Below, piece after piece: positions 38,515 to 46,055 of a stretch of DNA of 64,000 nucleotides. The notes under the pieces are model-generated. The model had not been told where the DNA came from and did no database searches. It was given only the letters and a program-made list of their open reading frames with translations. The number at the start of each line of letters is the position of its first letter. Position 1 is the first letter of the stretch. The translations under genes and the position numbers were made by a program. The DNA comes from Nocardioides mesophilus (lineage in GTDB: Bacteria > Actinomycetota > Actinomycetes > Propionibacteriales > Nocardioidaceae): the NCBI RefSeq assembly GCF_014395785.1, contig NZ_CP060713.1:2260501-2324500 (forward strand), given 5' to 3'.

Positions 38515-39189
38515 TCATGCCTGGGCGCGGTCGCTGACCGAGCTCCACGCCGAGTGCACGTGGCTGCGCATCACCGACTCCGCCCAGTCCGCGTCGCCGG
38601 CGCGGAACGCCGCGACCAGCTCGTGGTGGTGCCCGAGGCTGCGGCGGAACGACTCCGGGGAGTAGTGCGAGAACGTCCGCCAGACCACCGGCACGGTGAC
38701 CACCGAGGCGATCACCCCGGTCAGCCGGCTGTTGCCGGTGGACTCGAGGATCAGCCGGTGGAAGCGGTTGTTCAGCTCGGTCACCGCGTCCACGTCCGGT
38801 GTGGGGCCCTGCGCCGCGTCGTCCATGTCGTGCGCCAGCCGGTCGAGCAGGTCGAGGTCGAGCGTGGCCGAGGTGGCCGCCATCCGGCAGCCCCAGGGCT
38901 CGAGCACCGAGCGGAGGCTGAAGATCTCGTCGAGGTCCTCGGCGCTCCACGCCTGCACCTGCACGCCACGGTTGCGCTCGTGGCGGACCAGGCCCTCGGC
39001 GGTGAGCCGCCGCAGCGCCTCCCGGACCGGCGTCCGGCTCACCCCGAGCTGCTCGGCGAGGTCGCCCTCGCGCAGCCAGTCCCCGCCCTCACGGGTCCCG
39101 GCCAGGATCTGCTCGCGGATCAGCCGGTAGGCGTGGTCCGAGGCGTGCCCGGTGTCGGGGTCGGAGCGGCGGTGGTCGGTGGTCGTCAT
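38515..39189 (-). CDS. GntR family regulator, FCD type
   Basis: A 224-residue regulator. The N-terminal winged helix contains LREGDLAEQLGVSRTPVREA and RRLTAEGLVRHERNRGVQV; the C-terminal FCD domain has the metal-binding histidines in NNRFHRLILE, LGHHHELVAAF and MRSHVHSA. ATG at 39189. It is divergent from the CoA-transferase/Hyu operon, and two inverted copies of GGTTGTATRCRA lie in the shared control region, so it is the probable local repressor with a carboxylate inducer. Confidence 0.93.
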   Translation of the reverse strand: MTTTDHRRSDPDTGHASDHAYRLIREQILAGTREGGDWLREGDLAEQLGVSRTPVREALRRLTAEGLVRHERNRGVQVQAWSAEDLDEIFSLRSVLEPWGCRMAATSATLDLDLLDRLAHDMDDAAQGPTPDVDAVTELNNRFHRLILESTGNSRLTGVIASVVTVPVVWRTFSHYSPESFRRSLGHHHELVAAFRAGDADWAESVMRSHVHSAWSSVSDRAQA

Positions 39190-39218
39190 CGTGGCGCGAC
39201 TGTAGCAGCGGCGTACCG

Positions 39219-39230
39219 GGTTGTATGCAA
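39219..39230 (+). promoter_or_regulatory. GntR operator copy 1
   Basis: GGTTGTATGCAA lies upstream of the -35-like sequence of the Hyu operon and 30 bases before the regulator's start. It is repeated in inverse form at 39318-39329. Confidence 0.55.
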
Positions 39231-39245
39231 TGTGTGGACCACCTC

Positions 39246-39275
39246 TTGACGAGATTCGGGAGGCCGCCTTAGCGT
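39246..39275 (+). promoter_or_regulatory. Promoter candidate for the CoA-transferase/Hyu operon
   Basis: TTGACG (39246-39251), an 18-base spacer and TAGCGT (39270-39275) fit an actinomycete housekeeping promoter. The operator copies flank it. Confidence 0.5.
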
Positions 39276-39317
39276 CAGCGCCAGCACGACCGTGACGCGC
39301 GCCACATGTCTGAGATG

Positions 39318-39329
39318 TCGTATACAACC
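39318..39329 (-). promoter_or_regulatory. GntR operator copy 2
   Basis: TCGTATACAACC on the plus strand is the inverse of the first copy (GGTTGTATACGA). It lies in the leader, 19 bases before the CoA-transferase ATG, where a bound repressor would block elongation or translation. Confidence 0.55.
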
Positions 39330-39347
39330 GTCTGTCGAGAGGACCCC

Positions 39348-40547
39348 ATGGACGACGCCTTGCCCCTGGACGACCTGCGGGTGATCGAGCTGGGGCAGCT
39401 GCTCGCCGGGCCCTTCTGCGGACAGCTGCTGGGCGACTTCGGCGCCGAGGTGATCAAGGTCGAGGACCCGCGCACCGGCGACCCGATGCGCCAGTGGGGG
39501 CGCGAGAAACCCTACGGCAAGTCGCTGTGGTGGCCGGTGGTGGCCCGGAACAAGAAGTCCGTCACCGCCGACCTGCGCACCGAGGAGGGCCAGGACCTGG
39601 TCCGCCGACTGGTCGCCGAGGCCGACGTCCTCATCGAGAACTTCCGGCCCGGCACCCTTGAGCGCTGGGGGCTCGCACCCGAGAAGCTCTGGGAGACCAA
39701 TCCCGGCCTGGTCGTCACCCGGGTCACCGGCTTCGGGCAGAACGGGCCGTACGCCGGCCGCGCCGGCTACGGCTCGATCGGCGAGGCGATGGGCGGCATC
39801 CGCTACGTCACCGGCGACCCCGATCGGCCGCCGGCCCGGGCCGGGATCTCCCTCGGCGACTCGCTCGCCGCCACCTTCGCGTGCCTGGGCACCCTGGTCG
39901 CCCTGCACCAGCGCGGTCGCACCGGCAAGGGCCAGATCGTCGACTCGGCGATCTACGAGGCGGTGCTGGCCATGATGGAGAGCCTGGTCCCCGAGTGGCA
40001 GGTCGCCGGCTACCAGCGCGAGCGCACCGGTACGACGCTGCCGAACGTCTCGCCGAGCAACGTCTACCCCACGGCCGACGGCGAGATGGTGCTGATCGCG
40101 GCCAACCAGGACACCGTGTTCCGCCGGCTCGCCGAGGCGATGCACGAGCCGGAGCTCGCCGAGGACGAGCGCTACGCCACCCACGGGGCGCGCGGCCAGT
40201 CGATGCAGGAGCTCGACGAGCACATCGCCCGGTGGAGCGCCACCGTGAAGGCCGACGACCTCCTGGAGCTGCTGCACGAGCACGGGGTGCCGGCGGGGCG
40301 GATCTTCCGCGCCAAGGACATGTTCGCCGACCCACACTTCGCGGCCCGCGAGGCCATCGTCCGGCTGGCGCACCCGGACCTGGGCGAGTTCGCCATGCAC
40401 AACGTCGCCCCCAAGCTCTCGGAGACGCCCGGTCGGGTCCGCCACGTCGGACCCGAGCTGGGCGAGCACAACGACGACATCTACCGCGACCTGCTCGGCC
40501 TGGACGACGACACGCTGTCGTCGCTGCGCTCGGCCGGCGTCATCTGA
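39348..40547 (+). CDS. CaiB/BaiF (class III) CoA-transferase
   Basis: A 399-residue CoA-transferase. It has the N-terminus LRVIELGQLLAGPFCGQLLG, FGAEVIKVEDP and VLIENFRPGTLERWGL. The position normally holding the catalytic Asp (PG-F/Y-D) reads RAGYGSIGEAMGG, with Gly142, a pattern seen in a large subgroup of the family. It should move CoA between carboxylates, activating the product of the downstream amidohydrolases. First gene of the operon; ATG 39348 has GAGAGGA upstream. Confidence 0.9.
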   Translation: MDDALPLDDLRVIELGQLLAGPFCGQLLGDFGAEVIKVEDPRTGDPMRQWGREKPYGKSLWWPVVARNKKSVTADLRTEEGQDLVRRLVAEADVLIENFRPGTLERWGLAPEKLWETNPGLVVTRVTGFGQNGPYAGRAGYGSIGEAMGGIRYVTGDPDRPPARAGISLGDSLAATFACLGTLVALHQRGRTGKGQIVDSAIYEAVLAMMESLVPEWQVAGYQRERTGTTLPNVSPSNVYPTADGEMVLIAANQDTVFRRLAEAMHEPELAEDERYATHGARGQSMQELDEHIARWSATVKADDLLELLHEHGVPAGRIFRAKDMFADPHFAAREAIVRLAHPDLGEFAMHNVAPKLSETPGRVRHVGPELGEHNDDIYRDLLGLDDDTLSSLRSAGVI

Positions 40548-40556
40548 GGAGGAACC

Positions 40557-42628
40557 ATGACCTACCGGCTCGGCGTCGATGTCGGCGGCACGTTCACCGA
40601 CATCCTGCTGATCAACGAGGAGACGGGCGCCACCCACCGCGCGAAGACCGCCTCCACCCCGAGGACCAGTCGATCGGGGTGCTGCGCGGCATCGAGCGCG
40701 CGTGCACCGAGGCCGGGGTCACCATGGCCGAGATCTCGGAGGTCTTCCACGGCACCACCGTGGCCACCAACGCGATCCTCGAGGGCAAGGGCGCCCGGGT
40801 CGGCCTGGTCACCACCGACGGCTTCCGGCAGGTGCTCCAGATCGCCCGCTCGTTCGTGCCCGGCGGGCTGGCCGGCTGGATCATCTGGCCCAAGCCGGAG
40901 CCGCTGGCCGCGCTCGAGGACACCGTGGAGGTGCGCGGCCGGATCGCCAGCGACGGCTCCGTCGTGCGCGAGCTCGACGAGGAGGACGTGCGCACCCAGC
41001 TCCGGAAGCTGAAGCAGCAGGGCATCGAGGCGCTGAGCATCAGCCTGATCAACTCCTACGCCAACGCCGACCACGAGCAGCGGGTGGCCGCGATCGCCGC
41101 CGAGGAGCTGCCCGGCATCTCGGTCTCGCTGTCCTCCTCGGTGCTGCCCGAGCTGCGTGAGTACGAGCGCACCATCACCACCGTCGCGAACGCCGCGGTG
41201 CAGCCCCAGGTGGCCCGGTACGTCGCGAACCTGGAGACCCAGCTGAACGACTCCGGGGTCGTCGGCAAGCTCTGCATCCTCCGCAGCGACGGCGGCCTGG
41301 TCTCGGCCGGCGTGGCCGCGGACAACCCGGTGAACCTGCTGCTCTCCGGGCCGGCCGGCGGGGTCACCGGCGCCGCCTGGGTGGCCGAGCAGGCCGGCTA
41401 CCGCGACTTCCTCACCTTCGACATGGGCGGTACGTCGACCGACGTGGCGCTCGTGCAGGACCTGACCCCCCGGGTCGGCCGGGAGACGACGGTCGGCGAC
41501 CTCAAGGTGCGCGCCACCTCGGTCGACGTCCGCACGGTCGGCGCCGGCGGCGGGTCCATCGCGCACGTGCCCCCGCTCACCCAGGCGCTCCGGGTCGGCC
41601 CCCAGTCCGCGGGGGCCGCGCCCGGCCCGGCGGCGTACGCGGCCGGCGGCGAGGAGCCGACCGTCACCGACGCCAACGTGGTGCTCGGCTACCTGCCCAG
41701 CCAGCTGGCCGGCGGCGAGATCACCCTCGACCGCGAGGCAGCCCGGGCCGCGGTGAAGTCGATCGCGGACGCCACCAGCCTCGACTCGGTCGAGGCGGCC
41801 GCCGCCGGCATCATCGACATCGTCAACGAGAACATGTTCGGGGCGCTCCGGCTGGTCTCGATCCAGCAGGGCTTCGACCCGCGCGACTTCGCGCTCGTCG
41901 CCTTCGGCGGCGCCGGGCCGTTGCACGCCAACGCGCTGGGCCGGCTGACCGGAGCCTGGCCGGTGATCATCCCGCCCTCGCCCGGTGTGCTCTGCGCCTA
42001 CGGCGACGCCACCACCAACCTGCGCGACGAGTCGGTGCGCACCCTGGTGCGCCGGTTCAACGAGCTCAGCGACGACAGCCTGAAGGCGATCCTCGACGAG
42101 CTCGCGGCCACCGCCAGCCAGACGCTGGAGAACGAGGGCGTCCCGATCGAGCAGCAGGACGTCGTCTACTCCGCCGACCTGCGCTACCACGGCCAGGGCT
42201 TCGAGATCCCGGTCACGATCGACATCGGCACCTTCGACGGCTCCGGCGCCGGCATCGAGGCGCTGCGCCGGGCCTTCGACGCCGAGCACCAGCGGCTGTT
42301 CTCGTTCGTCCTCGACGCCGAGCACGAGCTGGTCACCGTCAGGGCGATGGCCAACGGCCCGCGCCCCGACGTCTCGGCCCCCGAGCTGCGCACCGGCGGC
42401 ACGGACCCGGCCGCCGCGCTGCGGCTACGCCACGACATCTGGGTCGACGGCGCCGAGGTCGAGGCCGGCATCTACGACCGGGAGCTGCTCGAGGCCGGCA
42501 ACGTCGTCACCGGTCCGGCCGTGATCACCGAGATGGACTCCACCACCCTCGTGCTGCCCGGGCACGCGGCCACCGTCCATCCCAGCGGCAGCCTGCTCAT
42601 CCGTCCCGTCGACCACCAGGAGAACTGA
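40557..42628 (+). pseudogene. HyuA-type hydantoinase/oxoprolinase subunit, with apparent frameshift
   Basis: ATG 40557 (after GAGGAGG) opens RLGVDVGGTFTDILLINEE, the N-terminal ATP-binding motif of HyuA. At about 40657-40661 the frame shifts: TASTP continues as EDQSIGVLRGIERACTEAG in another frame. One extra base at the run CCCC restores a 690-residue protein of normal length, with VFHGTTVATNAILEG, FDMGGTSTDVALV and VAFGGAGPLHANALG. HyuA works with HyuB to hydrolyse cyclic amides or imides with ATP. The lesion may be a sequencing error. Confidence 0.88.
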
Positions 42629-42631
42629 GTC

Positions 42632-44502
42632 ATGGCCACGCTGATCCAGACCGCGACCGAGCCGCTGCGCACGGTCGACGTCGACGTCGTCACCCTCGAC
42701 CTGGTCGAGAACGCGCTGCGCAACGCCCGCTACGAGATGGACGAGGTGCTGTTCCGGACCGCGCTGTCGCCGGGCATCCGCGAGCAGCACGACGAGTTCC
42801 CGCTGATCGCCAACCCCGACGGCAAGATGATGGTCGGCCAGTTCGGGCTCTCGATCCCGGACTTCCTCGACAACTTCGACGGCACCATCGAGGAGGGCGA
42901 CGTCCTGCTGACGTCGGACCCCTACTCCTGCGGCGCGGCGATCAGCCACGCCAACGACTGGCTGGTGGTGATGCCGATCTTCTTCGAGGGGCGGATCGTC
43001 GGCTGGTCGGCCATGTTCGGGCACATGTCCGACGTGGGCGGCAAGACGCCGGCCTCGATGCCCACCGACGCCCGGACGATCTTCGAGGAGGGCGTGGTGA
43101 TCCCGCCCTTCCGGCTCTACAAGAAGGGCGTCCTCGACGACGACGCGCTGCGGATCATCCTCAACCAGGTCCGCAAGCCGGACTGGAACCGCGCCGACCT
43201 CAACGGCATCGTCGCCGCCTGCCGCACCGCGGCCCGCCGGGTGCAGGAGATGTGCGCGCGGTTCGGCGTGGACACCTACAACTCCGCGCTCGACCTGCTC
43301 CTGGACCGCAACTACCGGGCCATGAAGACGCTGCTGGAGATGGTCTTCAAGGACGGCGAGACGCTCTCCTTCACCGACTACATCTGCGACGACGGCCTCG
43401 GCTACGGCCCCTACGAGCTGAAGCTCAGCCTGACCCGCACCGGCGAGAAGGTGCTGCTCGACTTCACCGGCAGCAGCCCGCAGGCGCAGGGGCCGATCAA
43501 CTACTACATCAACGAGAACCTGGTCCGGATGTTCTTCGGGATCTACATGATCACCGTCGCGGACCCGCAGATCCTGTGGAACGACGGCTTCTACCCGCTC
43601 GTCGACGTCGAGATCCCCGACGACTCGTTCTGGAAGCCGCGCTACCCCGCGGCCCTCAACGCCCGCAACCACGGCATCGGCCGGGTCTTCGACCTCTTCG
43701 GCGGCCTGCTCGGCCAGACCAACCCCGACCTGCTGAACGCCGCCGGGTTCTCCTCCTCGCCGCACTTCATGTACTCCGGCAACTACGGCGAGGGCCCGCG
43801 CAAGGGGAGTGGTTCCAGCTCTACTCGATCGGCTTCGGCGGGATCCCGGGCCGCCCGATCGGGGACGGCCCCGACGGCCACTCGCTGTGGCCGTCGTTCG
43901 TGAACATCCCGTGCGAGTACCTCGAGTCCTACTACCCGCTGCGCATCGAGCGCTGGGAGACCGTCGCCGACACCGGCGGGGCCGGGCTGCACCGCGGCGG
44001 CAACGCCGTCGACGTGGCCTACCGGTTCCTCGAGGCCGGCACCATCGCGATCCACGACGACCGGTGGCTGACCTACCCGTGGGGCGTCAACGGTGGCGAG
44101 CCCGGCGCCCGCAGCCGCAAGTGGCTGGAGCGCGCCGACGGCAGCACCGAGATGCTCAGCAGCAAGGTGCACGACGTGCCGGTGAAGCCCGGCGACCTGC
44201 TGCACTTCGTCACCTGGGGCGGTGGCGGCTGGGGCGACCCGCTCGCCCGCGACCCCGAGCTGGTCGGCCTGGAGGTACGCCGCGGGCTGGTCACCGCCGA
44301 GGGCGGCCGCCGGTACGGCGTCGTGTGCGACGACTCCGGGCAGGTCGACGCCGCCGCCACCACGTCGCTGCGCGCGGAGCTGTCGCAGGGACGGCCGGAC
44401 CCGTTGCCGACCTTCGACATGGGCCCGGGCCTGGAGACCATCCTCGAGCGCTGCGAGGCCGAGACCGGCCTCCCGGCGCCCCGACCGCCGGTAGCCCTGT
44501 GA
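42632..44502 (+). pseudogene. HyuB-type hydantoinase/oxoprolinase subunit, with apparent frameshift
   Basis: The gene starts at ATG 42632, four bases after HyuA. The first part has NARYEMDEVLFRTALSPGIR, GQFGLSIPDFLDNF and LTSDPYSCGAAISHANDW. At the run GGGG (43804-43807) the frame breaks, and EWFQLYSIGFGGIPGRP continues in a second frame to 44502. One extra G restores a 623-residue HyuB with TWGGGGWGDPL near its end. It forms the partner subunit of the ATP-dependent ring-opening enzyme. Confidence 0.88.
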
Positions 44503-44530
44503 CCGACGGGCCGGGGCAGGGAGGCGCCCG

Positions 44531-45142
44531 GTGACGGTGCCCGAGGAGGGGTTCGGGGGGGCGCTCGCACCCGGCGCCAACCCGGCCGTGCTCGCCATCG
44601 ACCTGATGCGGGCCTACTTCGACCCGGCCAGCCCGCTGTGCCTGCCGTCCGCGGACTGCCTGCACGCGGCCGGCCGGGTCGTCGCGGCCGCCCGGGCCGG
44701 CGGCGTACCGGTCGTGCACACCCGGGTCGAGTACGGTCCCGGCGGCGTCGACGGCGGGATCTTCCTGCGCAAGGTCCCGGCGCTGCGCCAGCTGATCGGC
44801 GCCGGCCCGCTCGGCGAGCTGATGCCGGAGGTGGCGCCGCGGCCCGACGAGCTGGTGCTGGTCAAGCAGTACGCCAGCGCCTTCTTCGGCACCACCCTGG
44901 CCTCGACCCTGCAGGCCTGGGGCGTCGACACCGTCGTCGTGGTCGGCGTCAGCACCAGCGGCTGCGTCCGGGCCACCGCGGTCGACGCCCTGCAGCACGG
45001 CTTCGTCCCGCTGGTGGTCCGCGAGGCGGTCGGCGACCGCGGCCCCGGCCCGCACGAGGCCAACCTGTTCGACCTGCAGGCCAAGTACGCCGAGGTGGTC
45101 GGCGAGCAGGCGGCGGTCGCCTACCTGGAGGAGCACCGATGA
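44531..45142 (+). CDS. Isochorismatase-family cysteine amidohydrolase
   Basis: A 203-residue cysteine hydrolase with the complete triad: D24 in LAIDLMRAYF, K112 in LVLVKQYASAFFG and C145 in VGVSTSGCVRATA. N-carbamoylsarcosine amidase and maleamate amidohydrolase belong to this group. Placed after HyuAB, it likely removes ammonia (or carbamoyl) from the ring-opened product. GTG 44531 has GGGAGG upstream. Its stop overlaps the next start as ATGA. The frame is intact. Confidence 0.88.
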   Translation: MTVPEEGFGGALAPGANPAVLAIDLMRAYFDPASPLCLPSADCLHAAGRVVAAARAGGVPVVHTRVEYGPGGVDGGIFLRKVPALRQLIGAGPLGELMPEVAPRPDELVLVKQYASAFFGTTLASTLQAWGVDTVVVVGVSTSGCVRATAVDALQHGFVPLVVREAVGDRGPGPHEANLFDLQAKYAEVVGEQAAVAYLEEHR

Positions 45143-46055
45143 ACGAGCAGCCGACCGAGCGGCCGCGGGTGCAGATCGTCGAGGTCTCGCCCCGCGACGG
45201 GCTGCAGAACGAGTCGGTGCTGCTGAGCACCGAGGACAAGGTGGAGCTCGTCGAGCGCGCGGTCCGGGCCGGGTCGCGGCGGATCGAGGTGACCAGCTTC
45301 GTGCACCCGACCCGGGTCCCGCAGATGGCTGACGCCGAGGCCGTGATGGCGGCGCTGCCGCGGTCCGCGGGGGTCCGCTACGCCGGGCTGGTGATGAACC
45401 GGCGCGGGCTCGACCGGGCCCTGGCCGCCGGCGTCGACGAGATCGACGTGGTCGTGGTCGCCAGCGACACCTTCTGCCGCCGCAACCAGGGCATGAGCAC
45501 CGAGGAGGCCTGCGAGGTCGCCGCCGAGCTGGTCGCGGCGGCCCGCGCGGCCGGCGTGTTCAGCACGGTCACCGTCGGCGCCTCCTTCGGCTGTCCGTTC
45601 GAGGGGAGGTGCCGCTGACCCGGCTGCGGGAGGTGCTCGCCCGGGTGGTCGACGCCGGGCCCGACGAGCTGGCGCTGGCGGACACCATCGGCGTCGCCGT
45701 CCCCGCCGAGATCACCGAGCGGCTCGCGGCGGCGCGGGGCGTGGCCGGCGCCGACCTGCCGCTGCGCCTGCACCTGCACGACACCCGGCACACCGGGGTG
45801 GCCAACGCGGTCGCCGCGGTGGCGGCCGGCGTCACCACGCTGGACGCCAGCATCGGCGGCACCGGCGGCTGTCCGTTCGCGCCGCAGGCCACCGGCAACG
45901 TCGCCACCGAGGACCTGGTCTACCTCTTCGACCGGATGGGCCTGGACACCGGCATCGACCTCGCGGCCACCACGGGGACCGTCTCCTGGCTCGAGGACCG
46001 GCTCGGCAAGCCGCTCCCCGGGGCGTTGCTGCGGGCCGGGGCGTTCCCCGGCTGA
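45139..46055 (+). pseudogene. HMG-CoA lyase-like enzyme, with apparent frameshift
   Basis: The gene opens with VQIVEVSPRDGLQNES, the metal and catalytic loop of the DRE-TIM lyases, then IEVTSFVHPTRVPQMADA. At the GGGG run 45603-45606 the frame breaks after FGCPFEG; PLTRLREVLARVVDAG, LHLHDTRHTGVANAV and GGTGGCPFAPQATGN follow in another frame. One extra G yields a normal 305-residue enzyme. The family cleaves 3-hydroxy-3-methylglutaryl-CoA or similar acyl-CoAs to acetyl-CoA and a keto acid. ATG 45139 overlaps the amidohydrolase stop. Confidence 0.88.

Follow-up and report, generated by a model that had tools for sequence, protein, structure and literature searches.

A stretch of 64,000 nucleotides from Nocardioides mesophilus (hereafter the window; C1:2260501-2324500 of a single-contig genome of 4.49 Mb) carries a compact operon of five enzyme genes with a divergent regulator gene, the six-gene set spanning 38515-46055 (Table 1). 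According to reading frames and Pfam matches, the five enzyme genes are co-directional and closely packed: the CaiB stop codon ends at 40547 and the HyuA ATG lies at 40557, the HyuA stop ends at 42628 and the HyuB ATG lies at 42632, and the ATG of a gene resembling 3-hydroxy-3-methylglutaryl-coenzyme A (HMG-CoA) lyase, here HMGL, lies at 45139 and overlaps the stop of the cysteine amidohydrolase gene (Cys) at 45140-45142. An earlier note on this DNA had described a tight plus-strand row of five genes, a divergent FCD regulator and two inverted motifs; coordinates, Pfam matches and palindromes confirm this layout. The gene set is kept in many soil actinobacteria and probably serves to open a nitrogen-containing ring compound and to cut the product into ordinary carbon building blocks.

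Table 1. Genes and operator-like sites of the operon (positions in the window)
Feature	Position	Strand	Evidence or remark
GntR/FCD-family regulator, divergent	38515..39189	-	Pfam FCD 89.9 bits, GntR 65.2 bits
Operator-like palindrome TTGTATGCAA, first of two	39221..39230	.	Position conserved in GntR-CaiB gaps
Operator-like palindrome TCGTATACAA, second	39318..39327	.	97 bp away from the first; most gaps examined keep this second site and the spacing
CaiB/BaiF (family III) CoA-transferase	39348..40547	+	Pfam CoA_transf_3 429.7 bits
HyuA, ATP-binding subunit, hydantoinase/oxoprolinase type	40557..42628	+	Pfam Hydantoinase_A 290.9 bits, plus N and C domains
HyuB, metal-site subunit	42632..44502	+	Pfam Hydantoinase_B 315.5 bits (first part); second part matches relatives in the proper frame
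Cys, cysteine amidohydrolase of isochorismatase fold, relative of N-carbamoylsarcosine amidohydrolase	44531..45142	+	Pfam Isochorismatase 118 bits
HMGL, HMG-CoA-lyase-like DRE-TIM lyase	45139..46055	+	Pfam HMGL-like 63.2 and 80.3 bits (two parts)

We analyzed the gene content around the best 80 HyuA relatives from a scan of public genomes (at least 69% identity, a sample biased towards close relatives). Over these 80 loci, HyuB is found in 80, Cys in 77, GntR in 75, CaiB in 68 and an HMGL-like gene in 64, with all six families in 60. For the 62 loci flanked by 5.5 kb or more on each side, the respective counts are 62, 62, 60, 55 and 53, with all six in 52. Beyond the six, the commonest flanking family occurs in 6 of the 80 loci. 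As a control, we used 20 non-orthologous hyuAB loci (HyuA 39-44% identical): HyuB is present in all 20 and a distant CaiB (34-35%) in two, while Cys, HMGL, GntR, LeuC and the alkylmalate lyase described below are found in none. The recurrence exceeds chance, and the set is a real module. The joint occurrence of the five enzyme families in other genomes, on which the earlier note had made its proposal depend, is thus borne out (60 of 80 loci versus 0 of 20 controls).

Modules occur across the Actinomycetota, in Nocardioides, Micromonospora, Kribbella, Amycolatopsis, Rhodococcus, Actinomadura, metagenome-assembled genomes (MAGs) of Acidimicrobiales and others. Twenty of 294 genomes of the family, that of the window included, hold a HyuA of at least 72% identity, the next match being at 49%, and CaiB adjoins HyuA in 19 of the 20 short loci from these genomes. 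None of the six other genomes of the same genus listed among the matches has a HyuA at this level; genomes without a match are not all listed. Seven of 296 genomes in the class of G305 match the HyuA of L059 at E 1e-150 or better; five of these seven regions (L128-L132) include CaiB in four cases, Cys in three and HMGL in one, two contigs ending early. Phylum-wide, a divergent HyuA (L133 as the query) has matches at E 1e-160 or better in 30 of 396 genomes. Twenty of these regions contain CaiB in 18 cases, Cys in 17 and an HMGL-like gene in 15 (some contigs end early; judged by their coordinates, L161 and L165 duplicate L101 and L128, respectively). The order in nine f18 loci becomes GntR-CaiB-HMGL-HyuA-HyuB-Cys, GntR being undetected in L171 and Cys in L175; the HyuA of these loci shares 44-46% identity with the L033 query. 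Lineages differ in gene order but keep most of the content, a pattern that speaks for a functional link.

Two other arrangements were observed. In Homoserinimonas, a second CaiB-Cys-HMGL set without HyuAB directly adjoins a full module (L056:4946-7686). A second, distant pair of HyuA and HyuB (39% and 32% identical to those of L033) is located at G000 C1:4055034-4056977 (L276), where other module genes are absent.

The two palindromes of Table 1 are also a recurrent feature. Two sites matching TTGTATACAA in at least 8 of 10 positions are present in the GntR-CaiB gap in 26 of 29 sequences (the window and 28 loci), and 54 of the 70 such sites in the 567 kb of these 28 loci fall inside GntR-CaiB gaps. 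The spacing is mostly 93-97 bp, with 65 bp in L039 and 106-110 bp in the Acidimicrobiia loci and L054. The site at 39221 is the sole exact TTGTATRCAA in the genome of the window. Based on contig coordinates in seven genomes searched, all seven exact sites of G000, G309, G310, G311 and G314 lie within this gap; sites outside it are the single one of G312 and two of the four of G313. This placement suggests that, in five of the seven genomes, the regulator serves this operon specifically. A wider regulon, traced through the operator-like sites, was considered and not retained.

Sequence motifs are well conserved in HyuA and HyuB. For CapAB, passages of PMC8453981 describe GxxPGP as the adenosine motif and DxGGTxTD and DxGGT as the phosphate motifs of the HyuA-type subunit; in CapB, the metal site is made of Asp41, His99, Asp102 and His124. 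The window HyuA presents DVGGTFTD (in its N-terminal piece), DMGGTSTD and GAAPGP; in aligned HyuA sequences (duplicates and some paralogues included), PGP is kept in 149 of 149 and the Asp of the second phosphate motif in 148 of 149. The HyuB metal-site positions were set by aligning the L033 protein with chain B of 6yra, which we take to be caprolactamase CapAB: the D, H and D are each found in 107 of 107 aligned sequences (duplicates included) and the last H in 99, the other eight having Asn. The nucleotide motifs and the Asp-His-Asp-His site of ATP-dependent hydantoinases/oxoprolinases (N-methylhydantoinase 7hk5, CapAB) are therefore also those of the module HyuAB. The CapA and CapB equivalog cut-offs, however, are far above the scores obtained (493.9 of 1000 bits for the window HyuA, 195.4 of 1000 for the L033 HyuB), and the gene partners differ.

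The solved structures nearest to Cys are N-carbamoylsarcosine amidohydrolase (26st, 159 bits) and, scoring alike, 3ot4 (149.5 bits), with 4l07 also among them; 3ot4 and 4l07 are presumably maleamate amidases, although their PDB file label gives only the isochorismatase family. Of the catalytic triad of the N-carbamoylsarcosine/maleamate amidase clade, Asp, Lys and Cys are each retained by all 103 aligned relatives, 102 of which also have the GDR arginine (duplicates and a few paralogues included); triad and arginine are shared with 26st, 1nba, 3ot4 and 4l07. The module Cys reached no NCBIfam equivalog cut-off. In both N-carbamoylsarcosine and maleamate, two atoms stand between carboxylate and carboxamide, a spacing which fits a half-amide derived from a five-membered ring.

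CaiB retains the Asp of its GDSLA motif in 115 of 115 aligned relatives (duplicates and a few paralogues included), in alignment with the Asp of solved transferases, which is the catalytic residue of family III CoA-transferases. The L033 lyase keeps PRDGLQNE, HxHDT and GGCP, as does HMG-CoA lyase (1ydo, human 2cw6), in which the Arg-Asp, His-x-His and active-site Cys motifs are functional. The two differ at an R-x-Y motif that we take to be R165/Y167 of the human enzyme: R-x-Y is present in 12 of 16 non-module HMGL copies (the other four have neither residue), whereas all 58 module lyases other than the Arthrobacter type read T or S (G in one case), x, T, and none reads R-x-Y. The window's own lyase piece reads T-V-T at this position. 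From 103 sequences, we selected 62 rows for a tree, leaving out the frameshifted window lyase (see below) and including its close relative from L033. Forty rows form one clade (support 100/98), 37 of them from module loci (three on contigs probably continuing a module) and the other three (L119, L120 and CL222) located away from HyuAB. Outside this module lyase clade are 16 other genomic copies and five Arthrobacter/Ornithinimicrobium rows.

The active-site Cys of GGCP is found in the same 58 of 58 module copies and in 0 of 12 of the Arthrobacter type; in the latter (L060, L062, L064, L065, L067, L074-L079 and L083), GGFP replaces GGCP and the tree branch is very long. In the genome of L096, a module-clade HMGL is located away from HyuAB, with a Cys-like gene (42%) on one side and a GntR-like gene (35%) on the other (L119:6466-10083). 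In that of L080, CaiB, GntR and a module-clade HMGL are grouped away from HyuAB-Cys (L120:7059-9893).

The end of the module appears exchangeable. A full CaiB is missing from 12 of the 80 loci; nine of these 12 also have no HMGL, and in all nine a lyase of the isocitrate-lyase/phosphoenolpyruvate-mutase superfamily adjoins GntR. These loci belong to Blastococcus, Geodermatophilus, Pseudonocardia, Prauserella and a Pseudonocardiaceae MAG. The nearest solved relatives of this alternative lyase are 2,3-dimethylmalate lyase (3fa3) and the petal death protein (1zlp), with which it shares the K-x-C-G-H loop (K, C and H of this KKCGH-type loop in 18 of 18); its NCBIfam prpB score, 277.5 bits, is under the cut-off of 354.4. 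It occurs at 76% identity or more in all nine genomes of the loci devoid of CaiB and HMGL, and in none of the 68 CaiB-bearing loci at 70% or more. In a search of 17 other genomes, we found it at 45-52% in three Acidimicrobiia and at 39-43% in three others; at E 1e-40, it is absent from the remaining 11. A dimethylmalate-lyase-like gene is thus a feature of nine loci and, more distantly, of the Acidimicrobiia type and two divergent loci, but not of the window.

A LeuC-type gene forms part of the module in seven loci: L057, L059, L081, L157, L163, the single locus L133/L136, and L113, a probable continuation of L063. All seven genomes carry a further LeuC elsewhere, and LeuD-type genes are found in L057, L113-L115, L157 and L163. 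As the LeuC genes of L157 and L163 belong to another subfamily, recruitment was probably independent. The recurrence of LeuC, together with the replacement of CaiB and HMGL by an alkylmalate lyase, makes an alkylmaleate or alkylmalate the more likely dicarboxylate, and LeuC/LeuD-type genes with an exchangeable lyase point to an alkylmaleate-to-alkylmalate step and a retro-aldol type cut. On this comparative evidence, the product of Cys is probably an alkylmaleate or an alkylmalate, split with or without CoA. A family that includes a propionate-CoA ligase (the L166 member) adjoins four divergent modules (L158, L163, L166 and L169), which hints at propionate-type products.

Other neighbours were less informative. 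At L136:13235-17098, a divergent module is followed by a short-chain dehydrogenase/reductase (SDR), a 3HCDH-family protein and an old-yellow-enzyme-type flavoprotein. Vitamin B6 degradation was rejected: the best match of the L136 3HCDH-type protein is FHMPC dehydrogenase at 217.7 bits, under the cut-off of 500. So was a propionyl-CoA carboxylase near the f18 modules, where the best NCBIfam match of the carboxyltransferase is mmdA at 345.5 bits, under the cut-off of 998.8; given this score and the likeness to methylcrotonyl-CoA carboxylase discussed below, the f18 carboxyltransferase is not evidence on the product. Nor could a substrate be read from flanking genes in general, since the extra ones (HisD, SDR, 3HCDH family, zinc-type alcohol dehydrogenase, ribose-type ABC transporter, PrpE, old-yellow-enzyme type) are found in few loci.

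From the gene content, its conservation, the operator-like sites, the catalytic residues and the alkylmalate-lyase-like gene that stands in place of CaiB and HMGL at nine loci, we infer the chemical steps, the repression and induction, and the substrate class. With moderate confidence, we propose that the operon encodes a catabolic pathway, induced by its substrate, that degrades a small cyclic imide with a five-membered ring or a similar ring amide. HyuAB would drive ring opening with ATP, giving a half-amide (a substituted maleamate or succinamate), from which Cys would remove ammonia to leave a C4-type dicarboxylate. If this is an alkylmaleate, a LeuCD-type hydratase would add water to give an alkylmalate; the hydratase would have its own gene in some species and would probably be a housekeeping enzyme in others, including that of the window. 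CaiB would then load CoA, and the HMG-CoA-lyase-like enzyme would split the product into a 2-oxo acid and an acyl-CoA. Other genera may achieve this cleavage without CoA, by means of the dimethylmalate-lyase-like enzyme. Repression of the operon would be exerted by the GntR/FCD protein through the two palindromes.

The earlier interpretation, as a whole, is partly supported. Its order of events (ring opening, deamidation, CoA transfer, lyase) fits both the HyuAB-Cys loci devoid of CaiB and HMGL, nine in number, and the CaiB-Cys-HMGL set without HyuAB in L056. What changes is the ending: LeuC and the alternative lyase suggest that another acyl-CoA, with pyruvate or glyoxylate, may be formed in place of acetyl-CoA.

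Several observations weigh against this pathway, or against parts of it. The remaining CaiB-less loci (L073, L080 and L084) have no alternative lyase either: L073, on a short contig, shows neither ending, L084 has a partial CaiB and a partial HMGL, and L080 has CaiB, a GntR and HMGL elsewhere in its genome (L120). Two Acidimicrobiia loci combine CaiB with a distant (44-50%) alkylmalate-lyase-like gene, and HMGL is found on contigs that probably continue these loci; since Acidimicrobiia carry both, the two endings are not strict alternatives. L096, one of the nine alternative-lyase genomes, also has the module-clade HMGL of L119, and CaiB was searched for in these nine genomes at the locus rather than genome-wide. 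CaiB occurs without HMGL in L072, and HyuAB without the other module enzymes in L132. Most loci of the main set have no LeuCD within about 10 kb, so that the hydration step rests on a minority. CaiB scores far under all equivalog cut-offs of the NCBIfam models it matched. The HMGL-like protein of the Arthrobacter/Ornithinimicrobium loci is very different and has no active-site Cys (12 of 12); it is probably a different lyase. Finally, the HisD, SDR and 3HCDH-family genes of L057, L063, L081 and L136 have no place in this scheme.

Different chemistries may also be considered for the same genes. HyuAB belongs to the same superfamily as the ATP-dependent acetone and acetophenone carboxylases and might itself be a carboxylase, the lyase and CaiB then handling a carboxylated product. 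HyuA does reach 303 bits with acetophenone carboxylase gamma and 202 with acetone carboxylase beta, but it scores higher with N-methylhydantoinase (436 bits) and 6yra (353 bits), HyuB too favours these two over carboxylases, and the near-constant Cys (77 of 80 loci) points to an amide product; we regard a carboxylase as very improbable. The same similarities could suggest a route of the creatinine or N-methylhydantoin type, in which HyuAB yields an N-carbamoyl amino acid and Cys the amino acid, with CaiB and the lyase downstream: among solved structures, HyuA/HyuB come closest to N-methylhydantoinase and Cys to N-carbamoylsarcosine amidohydrolase. A D-hydantoinase-like gene adjoining an N-carbamoylsarcosine amidase has been reported (PMC5364220), and passages of PMC8864220 place a HyuB-type and a CSHase-type gene (hyuB and cshA) in one proposed creatinine route of Corynebacterium glutamicum ATCC 14067. 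That route, however, is AmtR-regulated and comes with a creatine transporter and a creatininase, and the same passages do not mention CaiB, HMGL, LeuCD or an alkylmalate lyase. Creatininase, creatinine deaminase and sarcosine oxidase are not among the six families recurring over the 80 loci, a check that covered the recurring families rather than single-locus neighbours or whole genomes. An amino acid, moreover, would not suit the malate-type lyase, LeuCD or CaiB with HMGL, all of which recur. We therefore consider a hydantoin-type substrate unlikely.

Alternatively, the module may end in ordinary leucine-type chemistry: the ring would yield 3-hydroxy-3-methylglutarate or 3-methylglutaconate, then acetyl-CoA and acetoacetate through a succinyl-CoA:HMG CoA-transferase and a standard HMG-CoA lyase. 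The intact L033 lyase passes the subfamily model PRK05692 (297.8 bits, cut-off 246), and CaiB reaches 225 bits with the solved succinate-hydroxymethylglutarate CoA-transferase. Moreover, adding to the points raised above against our proposal, the module HMGL is the sole HMGL at E 1e-20 in seven of nine f18 genomes. Within the fetched stretch, five of the nine f18 loci have a biotin carboxylase and three a carboxyltransferase, which are presumably the methylcrotonyl-CoA carboxylase of leucine breakdown. Yet the genome of the window has a separate HMGL (C1:2003323, 43%), the module lyases other than the Arthrobacter type form their own clade with T/S-x-T (one G) in 58 of 58 where R-x-Y prevails in 12 of 16 non-module copies, and HMG would give LeuCD and the alkylmalate lyase no role. 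This ending is, in our opinion, improbable, and the cyclic imide pathway ending in a malate-type cut is the reading that we retain.

A separate question concerns the window copy alone. A codon-usage frame scan reveals one frame change apiece in HyuA, HyuB and HMGL, near 40.66, 43.80 and 45.60 kb. Each amounts to a net loss of one nucleotide relative to 8 of 8 orthologues compared, and each coincides with a C or G run or lies close to one; the earlier note had only hinted at frameshifts by its mention of repaired proteins. A stricter scan flags two changes in the operon (that of HMGL being too near the stop to count) and eight candidates, some of them doubtful, in 20 other 20 kb stretches of the genome. 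Three frame changes in 5.5 kb exceed the genome background, and sequencing error and decay both fit. With three of five enzyme genes frameshifted, the operon here may no longer function, or it may have been misread in sequencing. That it is decaying and encodes no working pathway is a serious possibility, somewhat short of an even chance: the density of changes and the absence of a close HyuA from the six other same-genus genomes listed speak for it. All three changes, however, are at or near C or G runs, as expected of assembly errors; the coding signal is clean elsewhere, and no damage is seen in CaiB, Cys, GntR or the operator-like sites. In L226 (G000 C1:324001-344000), two frameshift-like changes lie about 3 kb apart, at ~3.2 and 6.3 kb; clustering may thus not be unique to this operon, and clustered errors may occur. 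Relatives hold intact copies of the frameshifted genes.

One substrate may be put forward speculatively. Alkylmaleimides are small neutral monopyrrole imides left by the oxidation of chlorophyll, haem and bilins. According to passages of PMC7318184, which cite older finds in leaves and lake sediments, chlorophyll and haem yield maleimides and hematinic acid when oxidised; the leaf data of that study itself, in these passages, comprise hematinic acid and no maleimides. In such a route, HyuAB would convert the maleimide to an alkylmaleamate, Cys would give the alkylmaleate and LeuCD the alkylmalate, which either of the interchangeable endings would split into pyruvate and an acyl-CoA or free acid. 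We consider this full scheme a long shot.

The imidase/half-amidase pathway for cyclic imides follows the same logic of ring imide, half-amide and dicarboxylate, with enzyme families not known to be related to those of the module, which would be ATP-dependent and continue with a lyase. What would be new in the module is the coupling of ATP-dependent ring opening and half-amide hydrolysis to malate-type lyases. The earlier note knew of no described pathway with this exact set, and literature searches aimed at the set, mostly listings of best matches, gave none. Actinomycetota possess a compact, locally regulated module that gives a testable joint role to enzyme families usually annotated by family name alone. 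An apparently CoA-free ending can take the place of the CoA-dependent one, which would narrow the intermediate to a malate-type acid and thereby make a small substrate screen feasible.

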